The notes under the pieces: generated by a model
The model's input: the letters and a program-made list of their open reading frames with translations, nothing else
Databases searched by the model: none
Told to the model about the DNA's origin: nothing
Translations under genes and position numbers: made by a program
Assembly (NCBI RefSeq): GCF_900176595.1
Contig: NZ_LT838813.1
Coordinates: 4,854,001 to 4,918,000, forward strand
Direction of reading: 5' to 3'
DNA: 64,000 bases
Origin: Aquiflexum balticum DSM 16537
Lineage (GTDB): Bacteria; Bacteroidota; Bacteroidia; Cytophagales; Cyclobacteriaceae
Shown: positions 6,607 to 32,240 of the stretch, piece after piece
Position numbering within the stretch: the stretch's first letter is position 1
Layout of the letters: each line of letters opens with the position of its first letter

Positions 6607-6952
6607 TTTTTCAATATATGATTTAGGTTTTTTTCTGCAAAATCCTATTCCTTCAATATTTCTATCTGATTAATTACTGCGGCATCAGGATACCTAAAAG
6701 CAATCTATGGATTATTTCCCTTTTTTGAGCTTTAATGATTTATTCATCTATCCGACTTCCATCAATTGCGTCCTGCTTTAGCTGGACGGTTCCAAAACAG
6801 CCCGATTCTACAAGGGCTTTAGCCAAATAAATCATTTGGTGATGTTTGATCGCCTGCCTGCCGGCAAAGGCAGGCGCCACAAAACTTGATACCTGTCAAC
6901 CGGCAGGCAGGTTTAACACTTTCCCTGCCATTACTTTTACAAAATGTCAGCC
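6607..6952. other. Non-coding gap: repeat module C plus a GC-rich hairpin
   Basis: Positions 6745-6840 are a free-standing copy of repeat module C, otherwise found at the distal end of the long repeats at 8,450 and 11,215. Just after it, CGCCTGCC and GGCAGGCG (about 6850-6875) form a GC-rich hairpin, with a related CCGGCAGGCAGG segment near 6900. No gene is visible. Confidence 0.6.
6745..6840 (+). repeat. Dispersed repeat, module C only
   Basis: Near-identical to 11,630-11,724 and about 8,770-8,855 (shared landmarks: CGACTTCCATCAATTGCG, CTTTAGCTGGACGGTTCC, CCCGATTCTACAAGGGC). It shows that module C can exist without modules A and B. Confidence 0.75.
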
Positions 6953-8233
6953 TCAGTTATTCATTTTCACTTTAAGACCTTCGATTCTTTTCTTGTAGTA
7001 ATCGTTACCACTTAATTCAAAAGCTTTAGTTACATATTTGATTGCATTAGAAGAGTCCCCTTTTGCTTCATAATAATCAGCCATAGAATCAAAGGCATTT
7101 GCACTTTCAGGATAATACTCAGTGGCAAGTTCAAAGTACATTTTTGCCTTTTCAAACTGTTCCATATCCATATTCATGTAACCTGACATATTTAAAATTT
7201 CTTCCGGATAAGGAGGTTCAGCATATCCAAAATGGTCTTTGAGCTTCTTTTCCCTGTATTTTATTATACCGAGAAGCTCTTCTTTTGGTGTGTCAGGTGA
7301 ATTGAATTTATCTGTATTTTCCCATTGATACCATTCAAAAAGAGAGATTAATCCATCCATAATTGATGGAAAAGTAACAGTGCCGTGTATATCTCTTGGG
7401 TAAAATTTCCATTCTAAAGATAATCTGTTTTTAGCATTTTGCTTTACCATGTTTGAAAAGGCAATATTCGAACGGGCGAACAAAGTGAAATCTGTTGTAT
7501 CCTGCATTACATTGTCTATCGTAATCTGTGGGTTCTGCATGTGCAATTGCCCACTTAAAGACAGAAATAAAGCTTTGTTTTCATAATTCCGGGTAGCAAT
7601 TGTTTTATGTGCCTCGTTTAATAGTTTTTGGTCGTCCCAATCCAGACTTGGGTCAATGGCTAAATAATTCGCGAATAAATCGGGTTGGTTAATTAGTGTG
7701 GAAATAGTAAACAAACCTCCATAAGAATGACCAATTAATGTTCTATAATCAGTAACCGGATATTTGTTTTCTATAAAAGGAATAAGTTCTGTCTCGATAA
7801 ATTTCCTAAAATTATCAGCTTCCCCATTTTTTTCATGAAAAGGCATCCCATATTTAGTAGTTATAGTTGAAGTGGTTAGGTCTCTTACTCTATTTTTATC
7901 ATTCGAGATACCGACCATTACCATTTCAGGCGTAAAACCACCGCTATAATAATTTTGCACTTCATTTACTGTAGGAAGAAACATTTCTCCATCTAAAATA
8001 AAAACTACAGGGTATTTTTGATTTTTCTCAGGGGTATAACCGGCAGGCAGTTGAATATAAATCTTTCTTGGCTCATTTAGTACTTCGGAATAAAGACTAT
8101 CCAAAACACCTGCTTTTTGTAAAAAATGTTGATTTTGATTTCCCTGAGCTTTTACAAATTGTTGAAAGAAAATAATGAGTCCTATGGTCAATACTATTTT
8201 TAATCCTTTGGTCATTTTATTGTCTTTAATCAT
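6953..8233 (-). CDS. Secreted alpha/beta-hydrolase esterase (IroE/Fes-like) with C-terminal TPR
   Basis: A 426-residue protein with an N-terminal signal peptide (hydrophobic core LKIVLTIGLIIFFQQF, cleavage near VKAQG); ATG at 8218 is an equally good start. Residues about 40-310 form a putative esterase domain: YPVVFILDGEMF strand, nucleophile elbow GHSYGG with the catalytic serine, DPSLDWD, and a late DIHGTV with the probable catalytic histidine. The family includes esterase D, siderophore esterases and mycolyltransferase-like enzymes. Residues about 350-425 contain TPR-like helices (AKMYFELATEYYPESANAFDSMADYYEAKGD). Probably periplasmic; substrate unknown. Confidence 0.82.
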   Translation of the reverse strand: MIKDNKMTKGLKIVLTIGLIIFFQQFVKAQGNQNQHFLQKAGVLDSLYSEVLNEPRKIYIQLPAGYTPEKNQKYPVVFILDGEMFLPTVNEVQNYYSGGFTPEMVMVGISNDKNRVRDLTTSTITTKYGMPFHEKNGEADNFRKFIETELIPFIENKYPVTDYRTLIGHSYGGLFTISTLINQPDLFANYLAIDPSLDWDDQKLLNEAHKTIATRNYENKALFLSLSGQLHMQNPQITIDNVMQDTTDFTLFARSNIAFSNMVKQNAKNRLSLEWKFYPRDIHGTVTFPSIMDGLISLFEWYQWENTDKFNSPDTPKEELLGIIKYREKKLKDHFGYAEPPYPEEILNMSGYMNMDMEQFEKAKMYFELATEYYPESANAFDSMADYYEAKGDSSNAIKYVTKAFELSGNDYYKKRIEGLKVKMNN

Positions 8234-8274
8234 TCTTATTTTGCCTGTCTATTCCTAATTTAGGCTAACTGTAC

Positions 8275-8336
8275 GGCAGATTGGGTTCGGACCCTTATGG
8301 TCCGGTGGTCTTTTGGTGGCCTGACCCCAATCTGCC
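8275..8336. repeat. Long inverted repeat upstream of the esterase gene
   Basis: GGCAGATTGGG at 8275-8285 pairs with CCCAATCTGCC at 8326-8336. The loop contains a second hairpin with CGGACC and GGTCCG arms. It lies 42 bp upstream of the esterase start. It could be a transcript leader structure or the end of a small mobile repeat; there is no U-tract on either strand, so it is not a simple terminator. Confidence 0.6.
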
Positions 8337-8449
8337 TGTTATGTGTCTGTTCAGTTGTCCGGTACAATTTAACGGTTTTTCCGGCCCTTCCTATTTTTTT
8401 CGGGCCTCCATTTACAACTGAACCAGTTCGGGCGGCAATTCCTTTTTCT

Positions 8450-8855
8450 TCCCCCACAAAAAATACCTTAATCAGGATGTTTTTATTATTTGGGATTTCA
8501 TTTTATGGAATGATTATTTCTATCGGAGTATTTCTGAGGATTTATTTGGCTAAATATTGATGGTGGCCGATTTGAATTAAAAAATAATCGCATGGGGATC
8601 AAATATGGGTAGCCCCGGGTAAGGAACGCAACCCGGGGGCAATGAACAGCAAAACGTCTCCGGTTTTTGGCCGAAATAATGTCAATAGTGAATCAGACTT
8701 TCCGCCAAAAACAAGGAAGGTTTGATTGCCTAAAGGCTGGGGAAACTTCAGTTCTCGAATGGTTCGGGATGAGGCTTTATCTATCCGACTTCCATCAATT
8801 GCGTCCTGCTTTAGCTGTGCGGTTCCAAAACATCCCGATTCTCCAAGGGCTGTCC
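8450..8855 (+). repeat. Dispersed repeat copy R2 (modules A-B-C)
   Basis: Module A at about 8450-8566 (hairpin-like core, then TTTCATTTTATGGAATGATTATTTC and GAGGATTTATTTGGC), module B at 8571-8729 (GATCAAATATGGGTAGCC, CCCCGGGT/ACCCGGGG hairpin, GGTTTTTGGCCGAA with its inverted partner) and module C at about 8768-8855. It aligns collinearly with 11,310-11,724. Confidence 0.85.
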
Positions 8856-8962
8856 GTGGCAAATATTACCAAAGTCTGCTAACACTTTCCAAACTTGATT
8901 TTTTGATTGATTGATTTCAATCTATCTTTTAATTATTGTAGATTTTTCATTGTATATTTTTT

Positions 8963-9757
8963 TTAAAGTTTTGTAGTATTTATTGCTTTCCGTATCATTT
9001 TTTCATTCATTCTTGCCTGCATTTCCAGAGGTAAATGTTTAGCCATCCAAGCCATCATTTTGTTTTTTCCGCCTGGAACAGAAAGTAGGCTCTTGCCCAA
9101 TCCATTTAACCCAATTTCGGCAACTATAGACGGATCCATTGCTGTCATAGGCGTTTTACTCCAGTCCACACCATTATCTGCAACCATCGGAGTGTTGGTT
9201 AAGCCGGGAGACAGAACACTGACATCAACACCTTTTGGCTTTAACTCGCCATATAAGGATGCGCCCAAATTCAGCATATATGCTTTGGAACCTGCATAGT
9301 TCGAAAAATAGGGATTGGGCATATGACCTGATAAGCTTGCTATCAAAAGAATTCCTCCTTTTTTCCTGTCAATCATCGCCTTACTGAAGTGGTGTGTTAA
9401 TTGAAGCGTAGCAACAATATTAACCTGAATCAACTGCAGTTCTTTTTCCAGTGGTGTACTTTCAAAAGCTCCATTTACTTCCAATCCGGCAGCGATAACT
9501 AAAAGACCGATTTCTTCTTGAGTTCTTTTTACTCTTTCAATTCCTTCTTCCGTTGATAAATCTGCAGCAATGTACTTTGTTTCTATATTGTATCGATTCC
9601 GCAATAAAGTTGAATGTTCCTCCAATCCTTTTTCTTTACGGGCTACCAATATTATATTGATTCCTTTTGCAGCAATTTGGCTTGTTAACTCAGCACCGAT
9701 ACCTGAAGTTGCTCCGGTAACCAAAGCCCAGTTTCCATATTTTTTTTTAAAGTTCAT
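8963..9757 (-). CDS. Short-chain dehydrogenase/reductase (SDR)
   Basis: A 264-residue classical SDR. The cofactor motif TGATSGIG is at residues 14-21, the ADLS acidic strand near 66, and the active site is S(LS) around 143 with Y-A-G-S-K at about 154-158 (YxxxK). The length and the LIASLSGHMPNPYFSNYAGSKAY segment place it with the classical NAD(P)(H)-dependent oxidoreductases near the DltE/YqjQ-type group. Substrate not readable. A frameshifted SRPBCC gene lies about 50 bp upstream and may once have been co-transcribed. Confidence 0.88.
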   Translation of the reverse strand: MNFKKKYGNWALVTGATSGIGAELTSQIAAKGINIILVARKEKGLEEHSTLLRNRYNIETKYIAADLSTEEGIERVKRTQEEIGLLVIAAGLEVNGAFESTPLEKELQLIQVNIVATLQLTHHFSKAMIDRKKGGILLIASLSGHMPNPYFSNYAGSKAYMLNLGASLYGELKPKGVDVSVLSPGLTNTPMVADNGVDWSKTPMTAMDPSIVAEIGLNGLGKSLLSVPGGKNKMMAWMAKHLPLEMQARMNEKMIRKAINTTKL

Positions 9758-9807
9758 GGTTGATCATTTTAAGATTTTGATTTCAATTAAATTCACGGGG
9801 GATAAGT

Positions 9808-10172
9808 CTAATTTCGTTTCGTGTGTAACCTCATCGCCTGTTTCAATATGATATTTGTAGCATGGTCTTCTTCCCAAATCAATACAGGTTCGTCCAGGGT
9901 AACTCCTTTTTTTATCAAAGGAGACAAAATCACATGTCTTGTGGCATCACTCCTGTTTTTATTTCTGAAGATGTATAAGAGGTATCAACTGGTTGGTTTT
10001 TTAAAAAAATTGCTCCTATACCGGCAAATTCCTTCCAGACTTTTTCAATGGGAGCTTTAATAATAACTTCTACAGATGTTTCGGTGGGGGCTTTCCCGAG
10101 TTTAGGACTTTCTTGTGCCCATAGGGTTAATGATGTTGCTAATAAGATAAATGTTGGTATTGATTTTCTCAT
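9808..10172 (-). pseudogene. SRPBCC (START-like) family gene, frameshifted
   Basis: The first 80 codons give a signal peptide (MRKSIPTFILLATSLTLWA) and the start of an SRPBCC fold (VEVIIKAPIEKVWKEFAGIGAI), then a premature TGA at 9930. In another frame from just before that stop the reading continues as DATRHVILSPLIKKGVTL, EPVLIWEEDHAT and NIILKQAMR until TAG at 9808-9810. The two pieces together look like the proximal part of a polyketide-cyclase/START-like protein whose usual motif is GxGATRH; the C-terminal half is also missing. I infer one frameshift plus a 3' truncation. Confidence 0.65.
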
Positions 10173-10255
10173 GACTAATTTGTTTTAAAATTATAAACAA
10201 AGGTCATGTTTAAACTACTGAACCATTTTACAGAAAAGTTCAATAACTAATCAAT

Positions 10256-11092
10256 TTAGCTCATTCGATATTCAGAAGGGCTTTTGCCTGTTTGTTGTTT
10301 AAATACTCTGTTGAAGGTGGTAGGTGATTCAAATCCTAAGTCATAGGCAATGTCTGAAATGCGCAACTCACTATTTTTCAATAATTCAATAGATTTATCC
10401 ACTTTTACTTTTGTGAAGTATTTTTGAGGGCTCTCAGCATACGCTTCTGTAAACTTTCTTTTAAAGGTTGATAAACTCATGTGGCAAAGACTTGCCAATT
10501 CCTCGAGACTCAAGTTAGCATACAAATTACTTTGGATAACTTCTTCAAACTTTGCAAAAAAGGGCTTGAACATAGCGGCAAGAAAATCAAGTTCAGATGG
10601 TGCATGGATGGTTTTAGTCATCAAAATAATAAACTCTCTTAGTTTGTTCTTTATTAACTCCTCATCAGCCAATTCAGGATTCTCTAATAATATGTTGATA
10701 CTTTCTCTGTAGTGTTGGAGTAGTTTATTAACCTGTACTTGTTTTAGGTTAAAATCAAACATGTGATTTGAATTTCTAATATCAAAATCAAATAAACTCT
10801 TTATCAACTCAGGATATAACATTATACCAATCACCTCTACATTGTCATTCGTCTCGCCAGGTTTTTTTACAGTCTCATAGAAGTAGTTCAAGCATTTGGC
10901 TAATAAGGCGGTTTCATTATTAACCTGTAAAATTTCGGTTTGCGACCTAACTTGAAAATTACCTTGATTCACAAAAATGAAACAAGCTTCGTTCTCATGG
11001 TACTCTTTAGGCAGTCTTTCGAAAGTTGAAACCCGTAGCTTTTGAAAAACAACACGGCCTTTAAGTTTTAATGTATTTGATTCGAATTTCAA
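10256..11092 (-). CDS. AraC-family transcriptional regulator
   Basis: A 278-residue protein. The N-terminal 170 residues form an effector/dimerisation domain of the cupin-like type (QVRSQTEILQVNNETALL). The C-terminal 100 residues contain the two helix-turn-helix motifs of AraC/XylS: LEELASLCHMSLSTFKRKF and ISDIAYDLGFESPTTFNRVFKQQTGKSPSEYR, the latter the family signature. It is separated from the SRPBCC remnant and SDR by less than 100 bp, so it may have controlled them. Confidence 0.9.
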   Translation of the reverse strand: MKFESNTLKLKGRVVFQKLRVSTFERLPKEYHENEACFIFVNQGNFQVRSQTEILQVNNETALLAKCLNYFYETVKKPGETNDNVEVIGIMLYPELIKSLFDFDIRNSNHMFDFNLKQVQVNKLLQHYRESINILLENPELADEELIKNKLREFIILMTKTIHAPSELDFLAAMFKPFFAKFEEVIQSNLYANLSLEELASLCHMSLSTFKRKFTEAYAESPQKYFTKVKVDKSIELLKNSELRISDIAYDLGFESPTTFNRVFKQQTGKSPSEYRMS

Positions 11093-11823
11093 TTTTCTAT
11101 TAAATTAATATATGTCCGGCTTTAACAAGTCTCTTTCAAAAGTAAGTTACTAAGATAATTCTGCCTTTCGATTATTGTTGTGTAGTCTGTTATGCTTGCA
11201 CCTAATTTGTTTATTCATAACCCAAAGGTTTATTTATTTCCTTCGGAGTAGTCCAATAGATACACCTAAGGTAAGTTTTATCTCTTTAACCTACTAAATT
11301 CTTTCTCCACTAAAAATACCCTAAAAAGGATGTTTTTATTATTTGAGGTTTCATTTTATTGAATGATTATTTCTATCGGCGTATTGCTGCGGATTTATTT
11401 GGCTAATTATTGGTAGCAGCCCATTTAAATTAAAAAATGATCCCATAGGGATCAAATATGGGTAGCTCCGGGTAAGGAACGCAACCCGGGGAAAATGATC
11501 CACAAAACATCTCCGGTTTTTGGCCGAAATAATGTCAATAGTGAATCAGACTTTCCGCCAAAAACAAGGAAGGTTTGATTGCTTAAAGTCTGGGAAAACT
11601 TCAGTCCTCGAATGGTTAGGGATGAGGCTTCAGCTATCTGACTTCCATCAATTGCGTCCTGCTTTAGCTGGACGGTTCCAAAACAGCCCGATTCTACAAG
11701 GGCTTTAGCCAAATAAATCATTTTGTCCAACCCTTTAAGCCAAAGGTGCTGGACTTAGCCGCCCTGATTTTAAGCTGCTTTCTGATTGTAAAGATGTTCC
11801 TGGAATTCTATGAACAGTCTGCT
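11093..11823. other. Non-coding gap: long dispersed repeat and hsdM-side debris
   Basis: From 11,215 to 11,724 the stretch is the longest copy of the dispersed repeat. From about 11,770 to 11,823 a short minus-strand frame (ending at TAA about 11,771) reads RLFIEFQEHLYNQKAA across the IS66 junction in a frame different from hsdM. I cannot assign it; it is probably debris joined to the hsdM stub. Confidence 0.55.
11215..11724 (+). repeat. Dispersed repeat copy R3 (modules F-E-A-B-C, the longest)
   Basis: All modules occur in order: F (CATAACCCAAAGGTTTAT and the CTTCGGAGTAGTC landmark), E (CACCTAAGGTAAG to CCTACTAAATTC), A (AAATACCCT core to GATTTATTTGGC), B (hairpins at 11439-11453, 11466-11491 and 11516-11565) and C (11,630-11,724). 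It serves as the reference copy for the others. Confidence 0.85.
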
Positions 11824-11872
11824 CCACATAAGTATCCATCCGACAAAACCCGTCGGGTTATAATCATGAATT

Positions 11873-13369
11873 TTATTTAGGTCGGTATTCTTCCCAGTTT
11901 GATGGCAGTAGTTGATAAAGATCTTTTTGCTTATGGGATTGGATTCTTTCGAAGACATCCTTGAGCCAATCAAACTCGTTGATTTTATTCTTTTTGCAGC
12001 TTGCCATGAAGGAGTACATGGCAGCGGTCATTTCTGCTGCCTGGTGTGATCCGGTAAACAGATATGCTTTTCTGCCTACTGCCAGTGGTCTCACTGCATT
12101 TTCCACAAGGTTGTTATCGATTTCCATACGTCCGTGCAGCACGTAAGCGCTCAGTCCTGCCCATCTTTTGTTGGCATATGCTATGGCCTGACCCATCGGG
12201 CTTTTGGGCCTGTAGCTGTACTGTTTTTCTTCCAGCCATCTTCCGAGATTTTCCAGAACAGATTCCGCATGTTCCTTTCTCAACGCTGTCCGCTGCTGCC
12301 AATCTATTCCTTCATCCCGCATCTTTGCTTCCAGAAGGTAGAGCTTTCCGATTTCGTCCAGCACGTAGTTGGCATGTTCTTCATCATCCTTTACAGCATC
12401 CACAAACTTCCGTCTGGCGTGCGCCATACAGAAAGTCAGATGGATATCCGGATGGTTCCCATAAAGAGAATCATAGACTGTATAACCATCCGTCTGGATG
12501 ATGCCTCTAAAGTCCGCAAGCATTTCTTTGGGACCTGACTGATCCCTTCCTTTTCTGTAATCGAACAGCACAAGCCTGTTCACCGGGGCATGGTACAGCC
12601 ACATGTAACCCTGGTGGATACCGTTTTTATGGTCTCTGTCCAGAACCTTTATCGGTGTTTCATCGACCTGGAGATATTTTTGGCTGACCACTATCAGCCG
12701 TAGCAGCTCCCAGAGCGGTCTGAGATGGTCCCAGCCTCTCATGATCCAGTCAGATGCGCTTGAAGCAGGGATACGTACCCCCATCTTGGTGTACTTGTCG
12801 ATCTGTCTGTGGAGCGGCATCCCATAAACATATTTATCAACGGTCATTTGGGCAATTACCGATTCGGAGGGAATGCCTTTTTCTATCACCCTGTCAGGAA
12901 GCGTCCCGATAATGATGCCTTCACCGTTCGGTCTTGCATACTTTGGGCGGACATACCGCTTGACATAGAATGATGCAGGCACAACTTCGAGAACTTCTGT
13001 GACCTCTTCGCCGATCCTTGTGCAGCCTTCGGTGGATTCTGATGGTTCGATCACCACTTCTTCCCTTCTGAGTTCTTCGGGAAGGCTCATACGTCCCGTA
13101 CCTTTGGCTCTTTTCTTTGCAGCTGGCTTTTCAGCCAAGGTTATTGATCCGGAAAGTTCTTCCTGTACTGATTTTGTGGTGCCAAGTTCAAAAAGTCCCA
13201 ACTGGTCATCCCCTACATTGTTCGTACGTTTCTCACTCCTGAATCCAAAAAGATGTCTGCGGAGTTTATCGAGTTCGAACTGCTGATCCGAGATTATCTC
13301 TTCTTTCTCCGATAAGGTCAACAGGGCTTCTTCGTACAGTTTTTTGTAGTCTTTTTCCCCGTTTTCCAT
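11873..13369 (-). CDS. tnpC: IS66 transposase TnpC
   Basis: A 498-residue DDE transposase of normal IS66 length. The N-terminal coiled coil (EEALLTLSEKEEIISDQQFELDKLRRHLFG) is followed by the zinc-binding/TnpC linker region and the catalytic domain with VDETPIKV (first Asp), IQTDGYTVYDSL (second) and the distal NLVENAVRPLAVGRK segment with the Glu. The C-terminal FTGSHQAAEMTAAMYSFMASCK motif is typical. The gene is intact and in place inside both inverted repeats, so the element may be active. Confidence 0.95.
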   Translation of the reverse strand: MENGEKDYKKLYEEALLTLSEKEEIISDQQFELDKLRRHLFGFRSEKRTNNVGDDQLGLFELGTTKSVQEELSGSITLAEKPAAKKRAKGTGRMSLPEELRREEVVIEPSESTEGCTRIGEEVTEVLEVVPASFYVKRYVRPKYARPNGEGIIIGTLPDRVIEKGIPSESVIAQMTVDKYVYGMPLHRQIDKYTKMGVRIPASSASDWIMRGWDHLRPLWELLRLIVVSQKYLQVDETPIKVLDRDHKNGIHQGYMWLYHAPVNRLVLFDYRKGRDQSGPKEMLADFRGIIQTDGYTVYDSLYGNHPDIHLTFCMAHARRKFVDAVKDDEEHANYVLDEIGKLYLLEAKMRDEGIDWQQRTALRKEHAESVLENLGRWLEEKQYSYRPKSPMGQAIAYANKRWAGLSAYVLHGRMEIDNNLVENAVRPLAVGRKAYLFTGSHQAAEMTAAMYSFMASCKKNKINEFDWLKDVFERIQSHKQKDLYQLLPSNWEEYRPK

Positions 13370-13443
13370 GACATAAAGATAGCATAAAAAGTGGGTTTAA
13401 ATAGGTTTAGAAGCTGTTTTTATACCAAAAACCGCATCATTTT

Positions 13444-13791
13444 TCACACTCTTTTCAGGGAGGTGTAGCGGTCTCTGTAACTCACCGATTCAAGCCTTAC
13501 CCCCTGTAAGAGCAGGCTCAGTTGACTGCTTGTAATCCCGTTACCGGCAAGCACAGGACGTTCAAAAGTCCCCCTTTCGAGCTTTTTGACATACATGGCA
13601 AAACCGTCCCCATCCCATTGAAGCATACGGATCTGGTCAGAACGCTTGCCGATGAACACAAAAACATCCCCGTTCATGGGATCAAAGCCAAGCTTGTTTC
13701 GGACAAGGCCTGACAGTGAGTTGATGCCAAAGCGCATGTCGGTAGGTTCTTTGTACATGAAATACCTGGCCGAACTTGACAGGGCAAGCAT
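13444..13791 (-). CDS. tnpB: IS66 accessory protein TnpB
   Basis: A 115-residue protein of the IS66 Orf2 family: RYFMYKEPTDMRFGINSLSGLV followed by GDVFVFIGKRSDQIRMLQWDGDGFAMYVKKLERGTF, the family core. It is needed together with TnpA for efficient transposition in characterised IS66 elements. Its start abuts the end of tnpA (shared base 13791), indicating translational coupling. Confidence 0.93.
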   Translation of the reverse strand: MLALSSSARYFMYKEPTDMRFGINSLSGLVRNKLGFDPMNGDVFVFIGKRSDQIRMLQWDGDGFAMYVKKLERGTFERPVLAGNGITSSQLSLLLQGVRLESVSYRDRYTSLKRV

Positions 13792-14084
13792 CAGAGAAGC
13801 TTTTTGACAGTATCACTGTCTACTTTTCCGAAGAACTCAATACTTATACCAGATGGATAATTGATCTTGATGACAGGATCTTTTTGAAGACCGGGATTTG
13901 GAAACACCAGTGAAAAAGAGGATTCACCGTTCAGTGAAGGCTGTTTCATGTCAAACTTCCTGCACCAATAATAAAATGCCGTTCTTGAGATACCTTCTTC
14001 CTCTGCAAATGAAGCTTTACTCTTTCCTGAAACCTGCCACCTGCTGAACAGGTCATAATACTCATCATTGTTGATCTTTTTCAT
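13791..14084 (-). CDS. tnpA: IS66 accessory protein TnpA (helix-turn-helix)
   Basis: A 97-residue protein whose N-terminal half (YDLFSRWQVSGKSKASFAEEEGISRTAFYYWCRKF) is the helix-turn-helix domain of IS66 TnpA. The C-terminal half is a short beta-rich region (KINYPSGISIEFFGKVD). It is the first gene of the IS66 operon, 58 bp from the right inverted repeat. Confidence 0.92.
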   Translation of the reverse strand: MKKINNDEYYDLFSRWQVSGKSKASFAEEEGISRTAFYYWCRKFDMKQPSLNGESSFSLVFPNPGLQKDPVIKINYPSGISIEFFGKVDSDTVKKLL

Positions 14085-14150
14085 GATGCAACTTTACGAA
14101 GTAATCACCGGCCTGGAAATATGGGGTTTATCGGATGGATACCCACATAA

Positions 14151-17334: not shown

Positions 17335-17400
17335 CGATATTCTATTCTTTATTGTGTCATTTTAATGCGGTAATCGGTTTTCAGCATCGGCGGTAACTTG

Positions 17401-17607
17401 ATTATTTATAACCTAAAGGTTTACTCTTTTCCTTCTGCGAAGTCAAATAGAAACACCTGAGGTAACTTTCATTCTCTAAACCTAACAAATTCTTCCTCCA
17501 CAAAAAATACCGTAAACAGGGTATTTTTACTATTCGGGATTTCATTTTATTGAATGATTATTTCTATTGGCGTATTGCTGAGGATTTATTTGGCTGATTA
17601 TTGATGG
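17401..17607 (+). repeat. Dispersed repeat copy R4 (modules F-E-A)
   Basis: Starts with the F landmark (ATAACCTAAAGGTTTAC), then E (CACCTGAGGTAACTTTC), then A with core AATACCGTAAACAGGGTATT and tail GAGGATTTATTTGGC. It ends after TTGATGG, precisely where module B begins in other copies; B and C are absent. Confidence 0.82.
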
Positions 17608-18931: not shown

Positions 18932-19465
18932 CTAATCTTTCCTGTCGTAAGTTAAAATTTGAAGTCCATCCGAAAATGATTCTTTATCAATTAGTTCCCA
19001 ACTTCCACTTGCGGTTGAAGAACCAAATAGTTTTGTACCATATCCAAGTACAATAGGGTTCAATTTGAGTTTCAATTGGTCAATTAGTCCATTTTCTAAT
19101 AACCATCCAGCAAACTGTCCGCCACCACATAGGTAAATATCTGTTTTAGCGTTTTTTCTTATTTCATTCACTTTGTCTATACTCAACTTTTCGATTTTAA
19201 CGGATTCTGATAAGTTATCAATTTTTAGTGAATTCGAAAAAATGTGGTGTTCCATATTTGGATACGCAGGCTGCCCTGGTTCGAGTCCATATTGAAAGCC
19301 GAATTCATATGTTTTCCGTCCCATAATTACTGTTCCGAAATTAGCAAGGTCAGATTGATATTTTTCAACTCCTTCACCTTGCAAAATGAACTTGCTTATA
19401 TCGTCATTTTTTCCTGCAATATATCCGTCTAAGGAACTCGCTACATAATAAATTATCTTTTTCAT
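18932..19465 (-). CDS. RibD C-terminal/dihydrofolate-reductase-like protein
   Basis: A 177-residue protein of the RibD-C fold: YYVASSLDGYIAG at the N-terminus, TVIMGRKTYEFG in the middle, DIYLCGGGQFAGWLLENGLID, then LKLNPIVLGYGTKLFG. This is the NADPH-dependent reductase fold shared by RibD and DHFR; stand-alone members such as YyaP/YwjB are common in accessory regions and mostly uncharacterised. A second, diverged paralogue lies at 26,497 on the other side of the IS91 palindrome. Confidence 0.87.
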   Translation of the reverse strand: MKKIIYYVASSLDGYIAGKNDDISKFILQGEGVEKYQSDLANFGTVIMGRKTYEFGFQYGLEPGQPAYPNMEHHIFSNSLKIDNLSESVKIEKLSIDKVNEIRKNAKTDIYLCGGGQFAGWLLENGLIDQLKLKLNPIVLGYGTKLFGSSTASGSWELIDKESFSDGLQILTYDRKD

Positions 19466-21293: not shown

Positions 21294-21583
21294 AACGTAA
21301 AGTGTTTTAGACGCAATCTAGCCAAAAAAATAGCCAAAATAAATTGGCGTTTCAAGATTGCGTTTAAAACATAGTTGGACTAAGCCGTGCTACACCTATG
21401 GGTATTTATCTGCTTTGCTTTGAAGGTTTTGTCTGGTTTTGGACCATTGTCCTGAAGTTTTGGACGGATTCCGCTTTTTTACCCGGAAATTTTGTTTGGG
21501 ACCGGGCATACCTTTCCCTGTAACAGAACCTCTGTTTTGTTTTTCTTTCAGCTTTTCAAAGAACTTCATCCCTGCTTTTTCAT

Positions 21584-22759
21584 TCAGGGACCATTTGCTT
21601 TTCCTTCGGGCGTGGCAAAGACCATCCTTCCGTTCTTGCAGCAGCTACACCTGAACATCTCTTCTCCGAAAATCTCCTCCATCACCTCGTAGGTGCTCAG
21701 CCCATGGTAAAATGACACCTCCCTTGTTATGTTCAACAGCCTGAAACATTCATTCATTTTGGTGTTGCTGTTGGCCGAGGCCAAGATGCCGTAATAGCGG
21801 ATTTTGTAGAAGCCTGTTGGCAGTACATGTTGCATAAATCTTCTGACAAACTCGGAACAGGCAAGCAACATGGTTTTGGTTTTGTTGTCCCTGTAATCCT
21901 TCCACCTGAATTTTACGGTTTCACCATCTGTATCCAGAATACGGCTGTTGCTGATCGCTACCCTGTGGGTGTACCTGCCAAGGTAGCTGACCACCTGGCC
22001 CGCCCCCCTGAAGGTCTTCTTGATATAGACATTCCACATCTTTGCGTAAGATTCCCTTTTCAGACTATTGATATCGGCAAACAGCTCTTTTTGACCTCCG
22101 GGTATCCTGAGAAGGTTATCCTCCAGTGCTCCCAGAAGCCTTTCCATGAACAGTCCCCGGAACACAGCCGAAAGGGCCTTTACCGGAACGAAGAACTTTT
22201 TGCCGGCATACAGCCACTGCATCCCGTCACTGTCAAGGCCTCCTGCAGGAACCAGCATATGGATGTGGGGGTGGTAGTTCAGGGATTGGCCCCAAGTGTG
22301 GAGTACCGACAGACAGCCGCTTTCGACTCCCAGAAATGCCGGGTTCAGGGCAGTCTTCTTTACTGCTTTTGCGGAACATTCAAAGAGCAGGTTGTAACAG
22401 AACCTCTGGTTGATGTAGAACAATGGATTGAGAAACTCAGGAACCGTAAACACGGCGTGAAAGTACCTGACAGGCAGAAGCCTGCACTTTAGCTTTTCCA
22501 CCCACAACTGCTGCTTGATGTACTGGCACTTCGGACAGTGACGGTTCCTGCAGCTGTTATAGCAGACTTTGACCGTACCGCAGGAGTCACAACAGAGACT
22601 GTGTGAGCCCATTTGTGATGTCCGGCAATGGAGGATGTCGTTAAAGGCCTTTCTCTGATCAGGGCACAGATGCTTCTGCGACAGGAAGACCTCCTTTTGG
22701 GAATCCAGGACTGTTGAGAGTTCGGCCCCACCATTCCTCTTGTTGACAGCATCCATCAA
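21584..22759 (-). CDS. IS91-family transposase (left copy)
   Basis: A 391-residue rolling-circle (HUH, Y2-type) transposase. The N-terminal zinc-binding domain has C55/C57-type cysteines in LCCDSCGTVKVCYNSCRNRHCPKCQ (about 55-79). The HUH motif H165-I-H167 lies in NYHPHIHMLV, and VSYLGRYTHRVAISN and FYKIRYYGILA are the conserved distal blocks that carry candidate catalytic tyrosines. Residue 221 is Gly here but Glu in the right copy. Its start overlaps the recombinase stop (ATGA). Confidence 0.92.
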   Translation of the reverse strand: MMDAVNKRNGGAELSTVLDSQKEVFLSQKHLCPDQRKAFNDILHCRTSQMGSHSLCCDSCGTVKVCYNSCRNRHCPKCQYIKQQLWVEKLKCRLLPVRYFHAVFTVPEFLNPLFYINQRFCYNLLFECSAKAVKKTALNPAFLGVESGCLSVLHTWGQSLNYHPHIHMLVPAGGLDSDGMQWLYAGKKFFVPVKALSAVFRGLFMERLLGALEDNLLRIPGGQKELFADINSLKRESYAKMWNVYIKKTFRGAGQVVSYLGRYTHRVAISNSRILDTDGETVKFRWKDYRDNKTKTMLLACSEFVRRFMQHVLPTGFYKIRYYGILASANSNTKMNECFRLLNITREVSFYHGLSTYEVMEEIFGEEMFRCSCCKNGRMVFATPEGKANGP

Positions 22760-23577
22760 AGCTCATCCAGGGGACTTTTGATCAGGGCCGGATCCAGATT
22801 GCAGATATGCAGGTAGACCGTAGTGGTCTTAAGGGATCTGTGTCCCAGGAGTTCCTGGATTATCCTGACATTGGTCCCCTGCTCGAGCAGGTGCGTGGCG
22901 AAGGAATGCCGCAGGGTATGGAAAGAGGCATGCTTTGTTATTCCGGCACATTCCATGGCCTTTTTCAGAACAGACTGTGCGCTTTTTTCGCTGTATGGCT
23001 TTCCCGGCACCTGCCCTTCAAAGAGATAAGTAACCGGACGGTAGCTTTTGAAGTAATCCCGAAGCTGTACCAGTAACTTATGGGGCAGAAGGGTATACCT
23101 GTCCTTGTATCCCTTGCCTCCCCTCACTTTAAGCTGCATCCTGTCACTGTCTATATCGCCGGGCTTGAGACTGATCACCTCACCAAGCCTGAGCCCCGAG
23201 GCGTAGGTAAGGGCTATCAGGCAATAGTGCTTTCTGTTCCTGATACTCTTAAGGATAAGCGACACTTCTTCCTTTGAGAATACAACCGGAAGCAGCTTGG
23301 GACGTCTTGGCCGTTTGATCCTGATAGTATCCCAATCTCTTTCAAGCACGTCTTTGAAAAGTATTTTAAAGGCACTGATTGTCTGGTTGATGCTTGATAC
23401 CGAAAGTCCGTCCAAACTGATCCTTTTAAAAAGGTAGTCCTTTAATTCGGGGATACTGATCAGATCCGGACTTTTTCCAAAATGAGCTGATACTACAGAT
23501 ACCAGGCTAAGATAGGTCTTGATGCTTCTGGGAGAATAATGTCTGTAGGACATCTCCTCATACATCCTCTGGCGCAA
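22756..23577 (-). CDS. Tyrosine recombinase/integrase accessory to IS91 (left copy)
   Basis: A 273-residue phage-integrase-type protein: N-terminal SAM-like DNA-binding domain (MYEEMSYRHYSPRSIKTYLSLV) and a catalytic domain with R130 (ASGLRLGE), HTLRHSFATHLLEQG (HxxR) and LGHRSLKTTTVYLH (nucleophile Tyr). Such integrases accompany a subgroup of IS91 elements in Bacteroidota. Start: TTG 23577, or ATG 12 bases later. An ATG 14 bases upstream followed by a run of eight A residues is out of frame by one, so a slippage start is imaginable. Confidence 0.9.
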   Translation of the reverse strand: MRQRMYEEMSYRHYSPRSIKTYLSLVSVVSAHFGKSPDLISIPELKDYLFKRISLDGLSVSSINQTISAFKILFKDVLERDWDTIRIKRPRRPKLLPVVFSKEEVSLILKSIRNRKHYCLIALTYASGLRLGEVISLKPGDIDSDRMQLKVRGGKGYKDRYTLLPHKLLVQLRDYFKSYRPVTYLFEGQVPGKPYSEKSAQSVLKKAMECAGITKHASFHTLRHSFATHLLEQGTNVRIIQELLGHRSLKTTTVYLHICNLDPALIKSPLDEL

Positions 23578-23827
23578 ACTTTTTTTTCCATGATTAAATT
23601 AGTTAAAGATTGAACATGGAATAAATTTAATACATATTGTTAAAAATCAGGCCTTTATGATGGAATACAGAAAAACTACCGACGAAGGAGGTTTAGTTCA
23701 ACGTTGAACTAAACCTCCTTCGTCGGTAGTTTTTCTGTATTCCATCATAAAGGCCTGATTTTTAACAATATGTATTAAATTTATTCCATGTTCAATCTTT
23801 AACTAATTTAATCATGGAAAAAAAAGT
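23578..23827. other. Centre of symmetry of the IS91 palindrome
   Basis: A 250-bp perfect inverted repeat with no spacer. The centre is AGTTCAAC|GTTGAACT at 23695-23710. GTTC and GAAC, the tetranucleotides used by IS91-like elements, face each other across the dyad. It would hold the promoters of both integrase genes, which diverge from here. Confidence 0.85.
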
Positions 23828-24649
23828 TTGCGCCAGAGGATGTATGAGGAGATGTCCTACAGACATTATTCTCCCAGAAGCATCAAGACCTATCTTAGCC
23901 TGGTATCTGTAGTATCAGCTCATTTTGGAAAAAGTCCGGATCTGATCAGTATCCCCGAATTAAAGGACTACCTTTTTAAAAGGATCAGTTTGGACGGACT
24001 TTCGGTATCAAGCATCAACCAGACAATCAGTGCCTTTAAAATACTTTTCAAAGACGTGCTTGAAAGAGATTGGGATACTATCAGGATCAAACGGCCAAGA
24101 CGTCCCAAGCTGCTTCCGGTTGTATTCTCAAAGGAAGAAGTGTCGCTTATCCTTAAGAGTATCAGGAACAGAAAGCACTATTGCCTGATAGCCCTTACCT
24201 ACGCCTCGGGGCTCAGGCTTGGTGAGGTGATCAGTCTCAAGCCCGGCGATATAGACAGTGACAGGATGCAGCTTAAAGTGAGGGGAGGCAAGGGATACAA
24301 GGACAGGTATACCCTTCTGCCCCATAAGTTACTGGTACAGCTTCGGGATTACTTCAAAAGCTACCGTCCGGTTACTTATCTCTTTGAAGGGCAGGTGCCG
24401 GGAAAGCCATACAGCGAAAAAAGCGCACAGTCTGTTCTGAAAAAGGCCATGGAATGTGCCGGAATAACAAAGCATGCCTCTTTCCATACCCTGCGGCATT
24501 CCTTCGCCACGCACCTGCTCGAGCAGGGGACCAATGTCAGGATAATCCAGGAACTCCTGGGACACAGATCCCTTAAGACCACTACGGTCTACCTGCATAT
24601 CTGCAATCTGGATCCGGCCCTGATCAAAAGTCCCCTGGATGAGCTTTGA
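23828..24649 (+). CDS. Tyrosine recombinase/integrase (right copy)
   Basis: Protein identical to that of the left copy over all 273 residues, with the same catalytic R130, HxxR and Tyr positions. It starts at TTG 23828 or ATG 23840, and ends overlapping the transposase start by 4 bp. The pair of identical genes diverges from the palindrome centre, with 250 bp between the starts. Confidence 0.9.
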   Translation: MRQRMYEEMSYRHYSPRSIKTYLSLVSVVSAHFGKSPDLISIPELKDYLFKRISLDGLSVSSINQTISAFKILFKDVLERDWDTIRIKRPRRPKLLPVVFSKEEVSLILKSIRNRKHYCLIALTYASGLRLGEVISLKPGDIDSDRMQLKVRGGKGYKDRYTLLPHKLLVQLRDYFKSYRPVTYLFEGQVPGKPYSEKSAQSVLKKAMECAGITKHASFHTLRHSFATHLLEQGTNVRIIQELLGHRSLKTTTVYLHICNLDPALIKSPLDEL

Positions 24650-25821
24650 TGGATGCTGTCAACAAGAGGAATGGTGGGGCCGAACTCTCAACAGTCCTGG
24701 ATTCCCAAAAGGAGGTCTTCCTGTCGCAGAAGCATCTGTGCCCTGATCAGAGAAAGGCCTTTAACGACATCCTCCATTGCCGGACATCACAAATGGGCTC
24801 ACACAGTCTCTGTTGTGACTCCTGCGGTACGGTCAAAGTCTGCTATAACAGCTGCAGGAACCGTCACTGTCCGAAGTGCCAGTACATCAAGCAGCAGTTG
24901 TGGGTGGAAAAGCTAAAGTGCAGGCTTCTGCCTGTCAGGTACTTTCACGCCGTGTTTACGGTTCCTGAGTTTCTCAATCCATTGTTCTACATCAACCAGA
25001 GGTTCTGTTACAACCTGCTCTTTGAATGTTCCGCAAAAGCAGTAAAGAAGACTGCCCTGAACCCGGCATTTCTGGGAGTCGAAAGCGGCTGTCTGTCGGT
25101 ACTCCACACTTGGGGCCAATCCCTGAACTACCACCCCCACATCCATATGCTGGTTCCTGCAGGAGGGCTTGACAGTGACGGGATGCAGTGGCTGTATGCC
25201 GGCAAAAAGTTCTTCGTTCCGGTAAAGGCCCTTTCGGCTGTGTTCCGGGGACTGTTCATGGAAAGGCTTCTGGGAGCACTGGAGGATAACCTTCTCAGGA
25301 TACCCGAAGGTCAAAAAGAGCTGTTTGCCGATATCAATAGTCTGAAAAGGGAATCTTACGCAAAGATGTGGAATGTCTATATCAAGAAGACCTTCAGGGG
25401 GGCGGGCCAGGTGGTCAGCTACCTTGGCAGGTACACCCACAGGGTAGCGATCAGCAACAGCCGTATTCTGGATACAGATGGTGAAACCGTAAAATTCAGG
25501 TGGAAGGATTACAGGGACAACAAAACCAAAACCATGTTGCTTGCCTGTTCCGAGTTTGTCAGAAGATTTATGCAACATGTACTGCCAACAGGCTTCTACA
25601 AAATCCGCTATTACGGCATCTTGGCCTCGGCCAACAGCAACACCAAAATGAATGAATGTTTCAGGCTGTTGAACATAACAAGGGAGGTGTCATTTTACCA
25701 TGGGCTGAGCACCTACGAGGTGATGGAGGAGATTTTCGGAGAAGAGATGTTCAGGTGTAGCTGCTGCAAGAACGGAAGGATGGTCTTTGCCACGCCCGAA
25801 GGAAAAGCAAATGGTCCCTGA
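24646..25821 (+). CDS. IS91-family transposase (right copy)
   Basis: A 391-residue protein identical to the left copy except Glu221 for Gly221 (RIPEGQKELF against RIPGGQKELF). The zinc-finger cysteines, HIH motif and distal tyrosine blocks are intact, so both copies may be competent. Confidence 0.92.
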   Translation: MMDAVNKRNGGAELSTVLDSQKEVFLSQKHLCPDQRKAFNDILHCRTSQMGSHSLCCDSCGTVKVCYNSCRNRHCPKCQYIKQQLWVEKLKCRLLPVRYFHAVFTVPEFLNPLFYINQRFCYNLLFECSAKAVKKTALNPAFLGVESGCLSVLHTWGQSLNYHPHIHMLVPAGGLDSDGMQWLYAGKKFFVPVKALSAVFRGLFMERLLGALEDNLLRIPEGQKELFADINSLKRESYAKMWNVYIKKTFRGAGQVVSYLGRYTHRVAISNSRILDTDGETVKFRWKDYRDNKTKTMLLACSEFVRRFMQHVLPTGFYKIRYYGILASANSNTKMNECFRLLNITREVSFYHGLSTYEVMEEIFGEEMFRCSCCKNGRMVFATPEGKANGP

Positions 25822-26137
25822 ATGAAAAAGCAGGGATGAAGTTCTTTGAAAAGCTGAAAGAAAAACAAAACAGAGGTTCTGTTACAGGGAAAGGTATGCC
25901 CGGTCCCAAACAAAATTTCCGGGTAAAAAAGCGGAATCCGTCCAAAACTTCAGGACAATGGTCCAAAACCAGACAAAACCTTCAAAGCAAAGCAGATAAA
26001 TACCCATAGGTGTAGCACGGCTTAGTCCAACTATGTTTTAAACGCAATCTTGAAACGCCAATTTATTTTGGCTATTTTTTTGGCTAGATTGCGTCTAAAA
26101 CACTTTACGTTGGCTCTTAGTGTAGAATTAATCCATA

Positions 26138-26363
26138 CCTCTTTATTCTTGGAATTTTTAATTCCCCTCTTCTCAAGAAAGACATTTCAGGCCCATACAA
26201 AGCCGGTTTGAATTAAAAAATGATCCCATGGGGATCAAATATGGGTATCCCCGGGTAAGGAACGCAACCCGGGGAAAATGATCCACAAAACATCTCCGGT
26301 TTTTGGCCGAATTAATATCAATAGTGAATCAGGCTTTCCGCCAAAAACAGGGAAGGTTTGATC
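26138..26363 (+). repeat. Dispersed repeat copy R6 (modules D-B)
   Basis: Module D (TTCTTGGAATTTTTAATTCC, ACATTTCAGGCCC) precedes module B (GATCCCATGGGGATC, CCCCGGGT/ACCCGGGG, GGTTTTTGGCCGAA and its inverted partner). Modules A and C are missing, unlike copies R2 and R3. Confidence 0.82.
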
Positions 26364-26496: not shown

Positions 26497-27036
26497 TCAT
26501 TTTTTCCTTTTGTAATGATTCTGTGTTATTTGATTCAGAAAAGTTTTTGTTCCAATAAGCTCAAATTTCAGTTCGTTTGGTAATTCCGTAAATAAGGAAG
26601 ATCCTCCTCCTAATAAGACAGGAATTGTTGTAAGGATCATTTCATCTATTAAGTCCTCTTTTAGAAAGTTCCTGATGGTTGTACCACCGTCAATGTATAA
26701 TTTCTTATATCCTTTTTCGTGAATTTGGTCTAAAATTTCTGTCAATGTCCCTTTGACCAGATAGGCTTTGTCTTGATGAGAAAAAGGTATTTTTTTTAAT
26801 TTATTACTCAATACGAAAACAGGTTTGTTATATGGCCAATCGACCTCAAATCCGAGTACAGTTTCAAATGTTGTGCGTCCCATTACCAGGGCATCAATTC
26901 CATTAGAGAATTTCAAGTATCCAATATCATCATTGTCAGGATTTGGAATGGAGTGCAGCCAATCAATTCCACCATTTTTGTCTGCGATATAGCCATCAAT
27001 ACTTGTTGCGATAAATACGCTATTCTTTTTATTCAT
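26497..27036 (-). CDS. RibD C-terminal/dihydrofolate-reductase-like protein (second)
   Basis: A 179-residue protein of the same fold as the one at 18,932: VFIATSIDGYIADKNGGIDWL, DALVMGRTTFETVLGF, YKKLYIDGGTTIRNFLKEDLIDEM, then TTIPVLLGGGSSLF. Overall similarity to the first is low, so they are not a recent duplication. Predicted NADPH-dependent reductase, substrate unknown. Confidence 0.87.
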   Translation of the reverse strand: MNKKNSVFIATSIDGYIADKNGGIDWLHSIPNPDNDDIGYLKFSNGIDALVMGRTTFETVLGFEVDWPYNKPVFVLSNKLKKIPFSHQDKAYLVKGTLTEILDQIHEKGYKKLYIDGGTTIRNFLKEDLIDEMILTTIPVLLGGGSSLFTELPNELKFELIGTKTFLNQITQNHYKRKK

Positions 27037-27799: not shown

Positions 27800-28203
27800 C
27801 TACCTAATTGTCTTCATTTGGATACAAAATTATATGTTTTTTCTAGATTTAAAAAGTTACTCCGTATATACACCTGAGGTAACTTTTATTCTTTAAACCT
27901 ACTAAATTCTTCCTCCACTAAAAATACCGTAAACAGGTTATTTTTACTTTTTGGGATTTCATTTTATTAGATGATTATTTCAATCGGCGTATTGCTGAGG
28001 ATTTATTTGGCTAATTATTGATGGCTGTCGGTTTGAATTAAAAATGATCCCATAGGGATCAAATATGGGCAGCCCCGGGTAAGGAACGTAACCCGGGGAA
28101 AATGATCCACAAGAAATCTCCGGTTTTTGGCCGAAATCATGTCAATAGGGAATCAGACTTTCCGCCAAAAACAGGGAAGGTTTGATTGCTGTTCATTTCC
28201 AAT
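27800..28203. other. Non-coding gap with dispersed repeat R5
   Basis: Apart from about 70 bp upstream of the toxin start, the stretch is the repeat copy at 27,870-28,189. No gene seen. Confidence 0.65.
27870..28189 (+). repeat. Dispersed repeat copy R5 (modules E-A-B)
   Basis: E (CACCTGAGGTAACTTTTATT), A (ACCGTAAACAGG core, tail GAGGATTTATTTGGC) and B (GATCCCATAGGGATC, CCCCGGGT/ACCCGGGG, GGTTTTTGGCCGAA and partner) in order; F and C are missing. It ends 14 bp from the response-regulator stop codon. Confidence 0.85.
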
Positions 28204-31950: not shown

Positions 31951-32240
31951 TACCTACTTATTTTTGGAATTTTCAATTCCCCCTTTCTCAAGACTGCCAT
32001 TTCAGGGCCATCTAAAAAATAGTTTGAATTAAATAATTATCCCATAGGGATCAAATATGGGTAGCCCCGGGTAAGGAACGCAACCCGGGGGCATTGAACA
32101 GCAAAACGTCTCCGGTTTTTGGCCGAAATAATATCAAAAGTGAATCAGGCTTTCCGCCAAAAAAAGGGAAGGTTTGATCCCAAAAAGGCTGGGAAAACTT
32201 CAGTCCTCGAATGGTTCGGGATGAGGCTTCATCTATTTGA
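31951..32240 (+). repeat. Dispersed repeat copy R7 (modules D-B plus start of C)
   Basis: Module D (TTTTTGGAATTTTCAATTCC and TGCCATTTCAGGGCCAT), module B (ATCCCATAGGGATCAAATA, CCCCGGGT/ACCCGGGG, GGTTTTTGGCCGAA and partner), then the linker CAGTCCTCGAATGGTTCGGG shared with R2 and R3. It departs from module C after GAGGCTTCATCTAT. Confidence 0.82.

Follow-up and report, generated by a model that had tools for sequence, protein, structure and literature searches.

A REP-like three-hairpin repeat of Aquiflexum balticum, probably a mobile single-stranded DNA element, and its likeness to two-hairpin units at Y1 transposase genes

Module B is a three-hairpin repeat found in a 64,000-nucleotide stretch of the Aquiflexum balticum DSM 16537 genome (G000:C1:4854001-4918000, the whole of which is here called the window). 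It is probably a non-autonomous, intergenic mobile element of single-stranded DNA (ssDNA) that resembles repetitive extragenic palindromic (REP) sequences, and its first half, formed by hairpins H1 and H2, is of the same kind as the units that flank IS200-like Y1 transposase genes in related bacteria of its family. This reading is supported by the stems themselves, by compensatory change in H1 and H2, by the sharp ends of the element, by its multi-copy spread outside long open reading frames (ORFs), by copies that one congener has and another lacks at two sites, and by the concentration of such units at Y1 genes. Because the same hairpin units flank the genes of ssDNA transposases, the structure is apparently read at the DNA level, and a hitch-hiking piece of mobile DNA is more likely than a stand-alone RNA. 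The other half, hairpin H3, is a fixed partner seen only in module B. The parts of the element are given below for the copy R3, in window coordinates.

11438..11573, + strand: conserved core of module B in R3, 136 nt, ordered H1, linker, H2, spacer, H3, tail; 157.7 bits with covariance model (CM) R1, R3 being among the sequences used to build that model
11439..11453, + strand: hairpin H1, GATCCC-ATA-GGGATC (arms 11439-11444 and 11448-11453); both-side change in 5 of 6 pairs (alignment A3, described below)
11454..11465, + strand: linker AAATATGGGTAG, whose last four nucleotides, GTAG (11462-11465), stand at the foot of H2
11466..11491, + strand: hairpin H2, CTCCGGGT-(10 nt)-ACCCGGGG (arms 11466-11473 and 11484-11491); both-side change in 5 of 8 pairs (A3)
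11516..11565, + strand: hairpin H3, GTTTTTGGCCGAAA-(22 nt)-TTTCCGCCAAAAAC (arms 11516-11529 and 11552-11565); 13 of 14 positions paired, one mismatch
11566..11573, + strand: tail AAGGAAGG (AGGGAAG in the majority of copies), with which the core ends on the right by the conservation profile of 77 copies

The three stems lie exactly where an earlier note on this DNA had placed them. The ends of the core are sharp, with conservation across the 77 copies beginning at the first paired base of H1 and stopping after AGGGAAG. The tetranucleotide at the foot of H2 is GTAG in 29 of these copies and ATAG in 21, and conforms to NTA[AG] in 66. The mismatch of H3, C.C in R3, is unpaired in all 30 rows of alignment A1. 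When compared with dinucleotide shuffles, the R3 stretch is unusually foldable both as RNA (z -3.95, 0 of 200 shuffles as good) and as DNA (z -3.76, 1 of 200), and its opposite strand equally so (RNA z -4.40). No ORF of 150 aa or more lies over the core in any of 32 copies, the longest overlapping ORF being 107 aa. Module B is a short, palindromic, intergenic and multi-copy repeat, which is how a REP is recognised. A scan of the genome collection for the H3 pattern, demanding exact letters, found 15 stretches, only in Aquiflexum, Cognataquiflexum and Mongoliibacter, and all 16 H3 matches that they hold lie inside a full-length module B match.

Compensatory change in the stems was assessed in two alignments. 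A1 comprises 30 copies picked by BLAST and aligned by sequence (MAFFT), namely the 34 copies spanning at least 101 nt minus three duplicates and one L029 copy with an identical core, shorter hits being excluded. A3 comprises 84 CM matches (80 distinct rows, six genera of one family) which, being fitted to the model, lean towards its structure, so that A1 is the less biased of the two. Over the three stems of A1, 92.8% of cells are paired versus 31-59% when the stems are slid, and 33 cells are changed on both sides versus 12.3 in shuffles. In A3, taking all stems, 95.2% of cells are paired and 138 are changed on both sides, versus 45.6 in shuffles and no more than 32 when the stems are slid; both-side change affects 13 pairs versus 9.2 in shuffles, a number reached by 2 of 500 shuffles. 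Variants of H1 include GATCCC/GGGATC, GACCAC/GTGGTC, GACCCC/GGGGTC and GATCAC/GTGATC, and those of H2 include CCCCGGGT/ACCCGGGG, CCCCGAGT/ACTCGGGG and CCCCAGGT/ACCTGGGG. When changes were counted by parsimony on a tree made from the non-stem columns, so as to take account of ancestry (about 90 columns, 77 of the 84 rows, three truncated and the identical rows being left out), 37 double changes fell in H1, 14 in H2 and none in H3; the total of about 51 is an upper-end count of events, since replacement of a whole hairpin would score as several.

The behaviour of H3 is different in kind. Both-side-changed cells occur in 3 of its 13 pairs (2, 3 and 1 cells) and are explained on the tree by one-side steps. 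Nine copies that BLAST reached through the H3 side only all match the model over its full length, H1 and H2 stems included. What is selected in H1 and H2 is structure; H3 is conserved mainly as sequence, which is nearly frozen. The earlier note had held that other copies keep the stems, and had seen a hint of selection on structure in a C-to-T change in H2 of R3 that still allows a G-U pair. That pair (30/53) does form G-U, and in A1 the cells are paired to 96.7% in H1, 96.3% in H2 and, mostly, in H3 (89.2%, including the mismatch position). Its observation is partly confirmed: the argument for selection now goes far beyond one G-U change in H1 and H2 and hardly extends to H3, and the observation is sound except for a fourth, outer stem.

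This outer stem, pairing GATCAAA with TTTGAT, was rejected. It reuses bases of the 3' arm of H1, so that the two cannot coexist, and a complement of at least 6 nt is present in 7 of the 9 close copies, which come from G000 and G001, and in none of the 68 others, two diverged copies from those genomes included. The same letters could be read as the terminal inverted repeats of a miniature inverted-repeat transposable element of a DDE transposase. The outer complement of the close copies would suit such an element, but it is missing from the rest of the family, the two ends are structurally unlike, the core starts inside the proposed repeat, and no target duplication was seen by eye at two sites, which leaves this origin highly improbable.

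Compensatory changes suit RNA as well as ssDNA, and module B might instead be a structured non-coding RNA, either a molecule by itself or a part of transcripts, with stems kept for RNA function. The RNA folding score, the G-U cells, the 23 and 22 one-side changes at H3 pairs 147/181 and 149/179 and the conserved H3 sequence all agree with this. However, a search of Rfam with window positions 8200-12000 returned seven matches up to E 5, all below gathering scores, and no sigma-70-like promoter was found in 11250-11800 (0 versus 1.1 in shuffles, other promoter types lying outside the search). Rfam likewise gave no match at threshold at four transposase loci. The earlier note's hint of a stable RNA therefore gained no positive support. 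Further points against an RNA are the recurrence of H1-H2 as sequence-varying units at transposase genes, the differing numbers of matches among congeners and the lack of a preferred orientation to neighbouring genes. In 32 copies the left and right neighbours, oriented relative to module B by a simple ORF caller, were -/- in 11, +/- in 9, +/+ in 8 and -/+ in 2, with no left gene found in 2. Mixed orientation weighs against an element of sense-strand mRNA, for which one orientation would be expected; an RNA with its own promoter need not show it. An RNA function is quite unlikely on this balance.

The positions of the copies relative to genes also bear on the idea that module B began long ago as a REP-like repeat and is now retained by the host, for example as a transcription terminator or as a stabiliser of mRNA 3' ends. 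On the minus strand, which is that of the neighbouring genes, H1 of R3 forms a terminator-like stem followed by TTTTTT, and the 11250-11800 region holds 3 terminator-like sites versus 0.5 in shuffles. Among the 30 copies with both neighbours scored, 28 sit 3' of at least one gene, a count for which no expectation was computed, and REPs elsewhere lie mostly downstream of coding regions according to PMC3733652. Judged from the letters, H1 in the genus of the window looks like a minus-strand terminator. Yet the A5 run to the left of H1, which gives the T-run of the opposite strand, is found in 6 of the 9 close copies and in only 2 of the 68 others; because it is so rare beyond the close copies, the terminator is a local feature and not a trait of the family. 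The mixed orientation and the presence of the element at two sites in one congener and not the other tell against host retention as well, and avoidance of promoters is also expected from selection against any insertion there. Retention by the host is accordingly considered unlikely.

The mobile-element reading draws its main support from Y1 transposase genes. REP elements carry a foot tetranucleotide next to a GC-rich stem, as described in PMC3733652, PMC6006769 and PMC8266576, and since H2 has this layout, Y1 genes (Pfam PF01797) were examined. The A. balticum genome has them at 8 places. A search for single hairpins with G[TG]AG beside these eight gave three weak GGAG matches and no GTAG, and the link to transposases emerged only with the covariance model. 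CM R1 scored at least 15 bits at 14 of 36 Y1 loci (116 kb), most clearly at L017, in the A. balticum genome itself, and at L096, L104 and L105. No match reached 15 bits in a 400-kb control (best 14.3), although the control consists of 20 hand-picked stretches at round coordinates from eight of the 14 genomes with the repeat, which weakens the contrast, as does the laxer filtering that cmsearch applies to smaller inputs. At L017 the Y1 gene (G000:C1:799516-799902) is bracketed by a pair of direct repeats, about 226 bp long and 83% identical, and each repeat bears two units in opposite orientation.

The L105 protein was then used as query against 196 genomes, giving matches in 55 of them at E <= 1e-30, and 30 loci were examined. 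A unit finder that combined stem pairing, a G+C minimum and an NTA[AG] foot, without use of the stem sequence, located 74 H1-linker-NTA[AG]-H2 units at 23 of the 30 loci (100 kb), versus none in the 400-kb control and one in Markov surrogates of the loci (5 x 100 kb). CM R1 at 15 bits matched 25 of the 30 loci, and either method 27. Units flank the Y1 gene on both sides at 17 or 18 loci, a count that is inexact because contig ends cut L222, L231 and L236 and make the side uncertain there; both orientations occur at 14 of the 23 loci with units. The loci overlap to some extent, as L090, L098 and L110 are one array and at least four of the 36-locus set recur in the 30-locus set. The array itself (G171:C1:281349-283525) consists of three tandem Y1 genes with one translation, spaced at 916 bp and separated by CGGTCCCTTTAGGGAC...ATATGGGTAG units.

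The layout of the units is constant while their linkers vary with the lineage of the transposase. At loci whose protein shares 72-78% identity with L105, most linkers are AACYTYTCAATA[AG]; at 63% identity they are ATCTGATTAG or ATTCGATTAG, and near 50% they are AACAATAATAA, AACAACAATAA or others. Module B copies L037, L047 and L048, from Mongoliibacter and two other genomes, carry GAACTTTGAATAG, which is one C short of GAACCTTTGAATAG, the linker at transposase locus L219. This near-identity ties the first half of module B to the transposase units.

The flanked proteins pass the NCBIfam model for IS200/IS605 (NF033573, cut-off 55), with 60.6 bits for L105, 69.2 for L097 and 78.6 for L085, and fail the model for the REP-associated tyrosine transposase RAYT, or TnpA-REP (NF047646, cut-off 80), with 19.8, 35.0 and 34.9 bits, respectively; a class-2-like protein, L018, scores 103.7 bits with NF047646. 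Against the PDB, L105 gave two weak matches, to the IS608 transposase chain 2a6m (E 7.8e-5) and to chain 2xm3 (E 1.3e-4), which we take to be ISDra2. The motifs DH[ILV]H, WQ and Y---Q--HH were read by eye in L105, L096, L104, L085, L086, L014, L099 and L102, with L in the HUH motif of some. By these motifs the flanked proteins match TnpA-Y1 subclass 1.2 of the PMC6006769 survey, with which they also share membership of the Bacteroidota and a length of about 150 aa. The survey marks the subclass 'no' for REP in its table and describes it as generally devoid of the terminal secondary structures of IS200. In contrast to the survey, two-hairpin units here flank 27 of 30 loci found with one such protein. 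No report of REP-like units for subclass 1.2 was found among the titles and abstract openings listed by searches of open-access papers.

Module B and the units resemble the REP/REPIN elements (also known as BIMEs, bacterial interspersed mosaic elements) of RAYTs in being short intergenic hairpins in many copies, in having a GC-rich stem with a tetranucleotide at its 5' foot, and in that units face both ways about the Y1 gene at 14 of the 23 loci, whereas the module B copies of the window all lie on the + strand. They differ in that the units have two hairpins, H1 and H2, and not one, that the foot is NTA[AG] and not GT[AG]G, that the transposase scores as IS200 and not as RAYT, and that module B adds H3. 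The REP studies consulted (PMC3733652, PMC6006769 and PMC8266576) deal chiefly with single-hairpin GT[AG]G repeats. TnpA-Y1 subclass 2.6, as PMC6006769 presents it, is also found in Bacteroidetes and has atypical hairpins near the Y1 gene without the consensus GT[AG]G; unlike the proteins described here it has motifs of its own, NH[LIV]H and YIH[QN]NP, and its hairpins are likened to ours by description only. The ends of IS200/IS605 elements such as IS608 and ISDra2 are likewise served by an HUH-Y1 enzyme, whereas the present units are many, dispersed and in both orientations, and a mobile unit bounded by a single left and a single right end was not demonstrated around the gene.

Bacteria live with selfish DNA, of which REP repeats together with their transposases are a textbook case, and both IS608 TnpA and TnpA-REP recognise their own hairpins in single-stranded DNA. 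By analogy, a Y1 (HUH) transposase may recognise the hairpins of the present units in ssDNA and would cleave by way of the NTAG foot. Module B would then move, or would once have moved, in trans by such an enzyme, with H3 perhaps marking or protecting its other end. A bolder version, which we put forward tentatively and hold to be slightly short of an even chance, is that subclass 1.2 has a REP system of its own, whose substrate has two hairpins and a 10-15 nt linker ending in NTA[AG], with stems and linkers specific to the lineage, and that module B derives from such a unit as a miniature single-strand transposon, one which gained a sequence-frozen third hairpin and spread across genera. If this were so, the REP way of life would exist also on the IS200 side, in a subclass recorded without REP, and there would be an explanation for one class of intergenic repeats in this family, along with the spurious ORFs that they contain. 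The covarying stems together with the NTA[AG] foot provide a ready set of substrates for biochemical tests.

A number of observations weigh against the mobile-element reading, in addition to the limits of the control given above. The foot is NTA[AG] and not strictly GTAG; since part of the copies depart from GT[AG]G there and the protein fails the curated RAYT model, module B is REP-like and not a strict member of the REPs. In the less biased alignment A1 the pairs with both-side change number 5 versus 4.3 in shuffles, with 229 of 500 shuffles as high, and further pair types do not rise above shuffles in either alignment (15 versus 18.7 in A1, 31 versus 32.1 in A3). No Y1 gene lies within the window. 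CM R1 had no match of at least 15 bits at 22 of the 36 Y1 loci, stricter stem rules retained units at 3 of the 36 (again with none in the control), and three of the 30 loci showed no unit by either method, namely L229, whose protein is 72% identical to the query, L240 and L242. No H3-like R1 match of at least 15 bits was found at the transposase loci inspected; it is the H1-H2 unit that flanks Y1 genes, and the composite bearing H3 was not found there.

The identity of the enzyme and the evidence for movement raise further objections to the same reading. The linker of module B itself, ATATGGGTAG, is found in units of a different Y1 lineage (L090, L097), and the Y1 gene with the most similar flanks in the A. 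balticum genome is broken, with one TGA and one TAA in the match; both facts make any assignment of a partner enzyme to the window copies uncertain, and the second makes present activity in this genome doubtful. Two sites differ in presence between congeners, with about 505 nt at G192:C11:393897 versus 50 in G064, and about 277 nt at G064:C5:585219 versus 28 in G192. At neither of these was a clean empty site or a target duplication seen by eye, the spacers being patchy and the exact ends of insertion unreadable, and as the spacer around them also differs, both might result from recombination or deletion. A clean empty site was also sought in G001, where none was found, as the match stops at module A, a repeat that adjoins module B.

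Among the 196 sampled genomes of the family, BLAST matches to the repeat occur in at least 14, with four candidates scored per genome. In these 14, CM R1 gave 4 to 71 matches each at E <= 0.001, some of them H1-H2 without H3; as 150 candidates were scored in each genome, the counts are to be read as minima. Numbers differ among congeners of genus g64, from 15 to at least 71. In Cognataquiflexum loci (L029, L030, L042 and others), a hairpin ATGTTTGTGGAGACACAAACAT often precedes module B, and CCTTTGCG...TTGCGAAACCTT repeats follow it. In the A. balticum genome, a single contig of 5.99 Mb, BLAST placed module B at nine sites, of which seven are near full length, one is diverged (793178) and one is a short fragment. 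At L009 1369-1545 (G000:C1 near 5546600), an H1-H2 unit has an insert of about 40 nt, seemingly in the loop of H2, and lacks the usual H3 sequence. Five of the nine copies, all on the + strand, fall inside the window, R3 and the following four.

8585..8720, + strand: module B copy, 148.8 bits with CM R1
26221..26356, + strand: module B copy with neither module A nor module C adjacent on the module map, 155.2 bits with CM R1
28045..28180, + strand: module B copy, 152.5 bits with CM R1
32037..32172, + strand: module B copy, 148.4 bits with CM R1

The uniform strand of these five copies, amid long ORFs that lie mostly on the minus strand, recalls an array of gene cassettes, in which module B would be an attC-like recombination site. 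Copies 0.3-1.5 kb apart in relatives would fit such an array, and regularly spaced rows do exist, for example G120:C22 at 1494, 1728 and 1962. However, the intervening ORFs are ordinary or spurious by eye, judged without a family search, and elsewhere the copies are dispersed and show no single orientation relative to genes. The stems, moreover, are local hairpins and not one long imperfect stem, and no attC core motif was noticed on reading, no search for it being made. A cassette origin is even less credible than one from a DDE element.

Within the window the repeat is a mosaic: module A stands by itself at 17394-17603, as does part of module C at 6743-6840, and module B has neither A nor C with it at 26201-26362. 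Modules A and C (11203-11417, 11580-11730, 17394-17603, 6743-6840) are separate repeats that are joined to B in differing combinations, and module C holds further hairpin-like stretches, GTCCTGCTTTAGCTGGAC and GGGCTTTAGCC. Minus-strand ORFs that run through modules B and C at 11452-11730 and 8599-8862 end in ...LRSLPGATHI; they are probably spurious and may come to be annotated as proteins. An IS66-type element adjoins R3 at 11832-14142, with DDE_Tnp_IS66 and TnpB_IS66 proteins and a 20-nt inverted repeat (11832-11851 and 14123-14142). At 21294-26111 a near-perfect 4.8-kb palindrome (99.9%) is formed by one element present twice, head to head, which encodes an IS91-type Y2 transposase as well as a tyrosine recombinase. 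The same repeat-rich stretch holds two RibD_C (dihydrofolate-reductase-like) genes, at 18932-19465 and 26497-27036.
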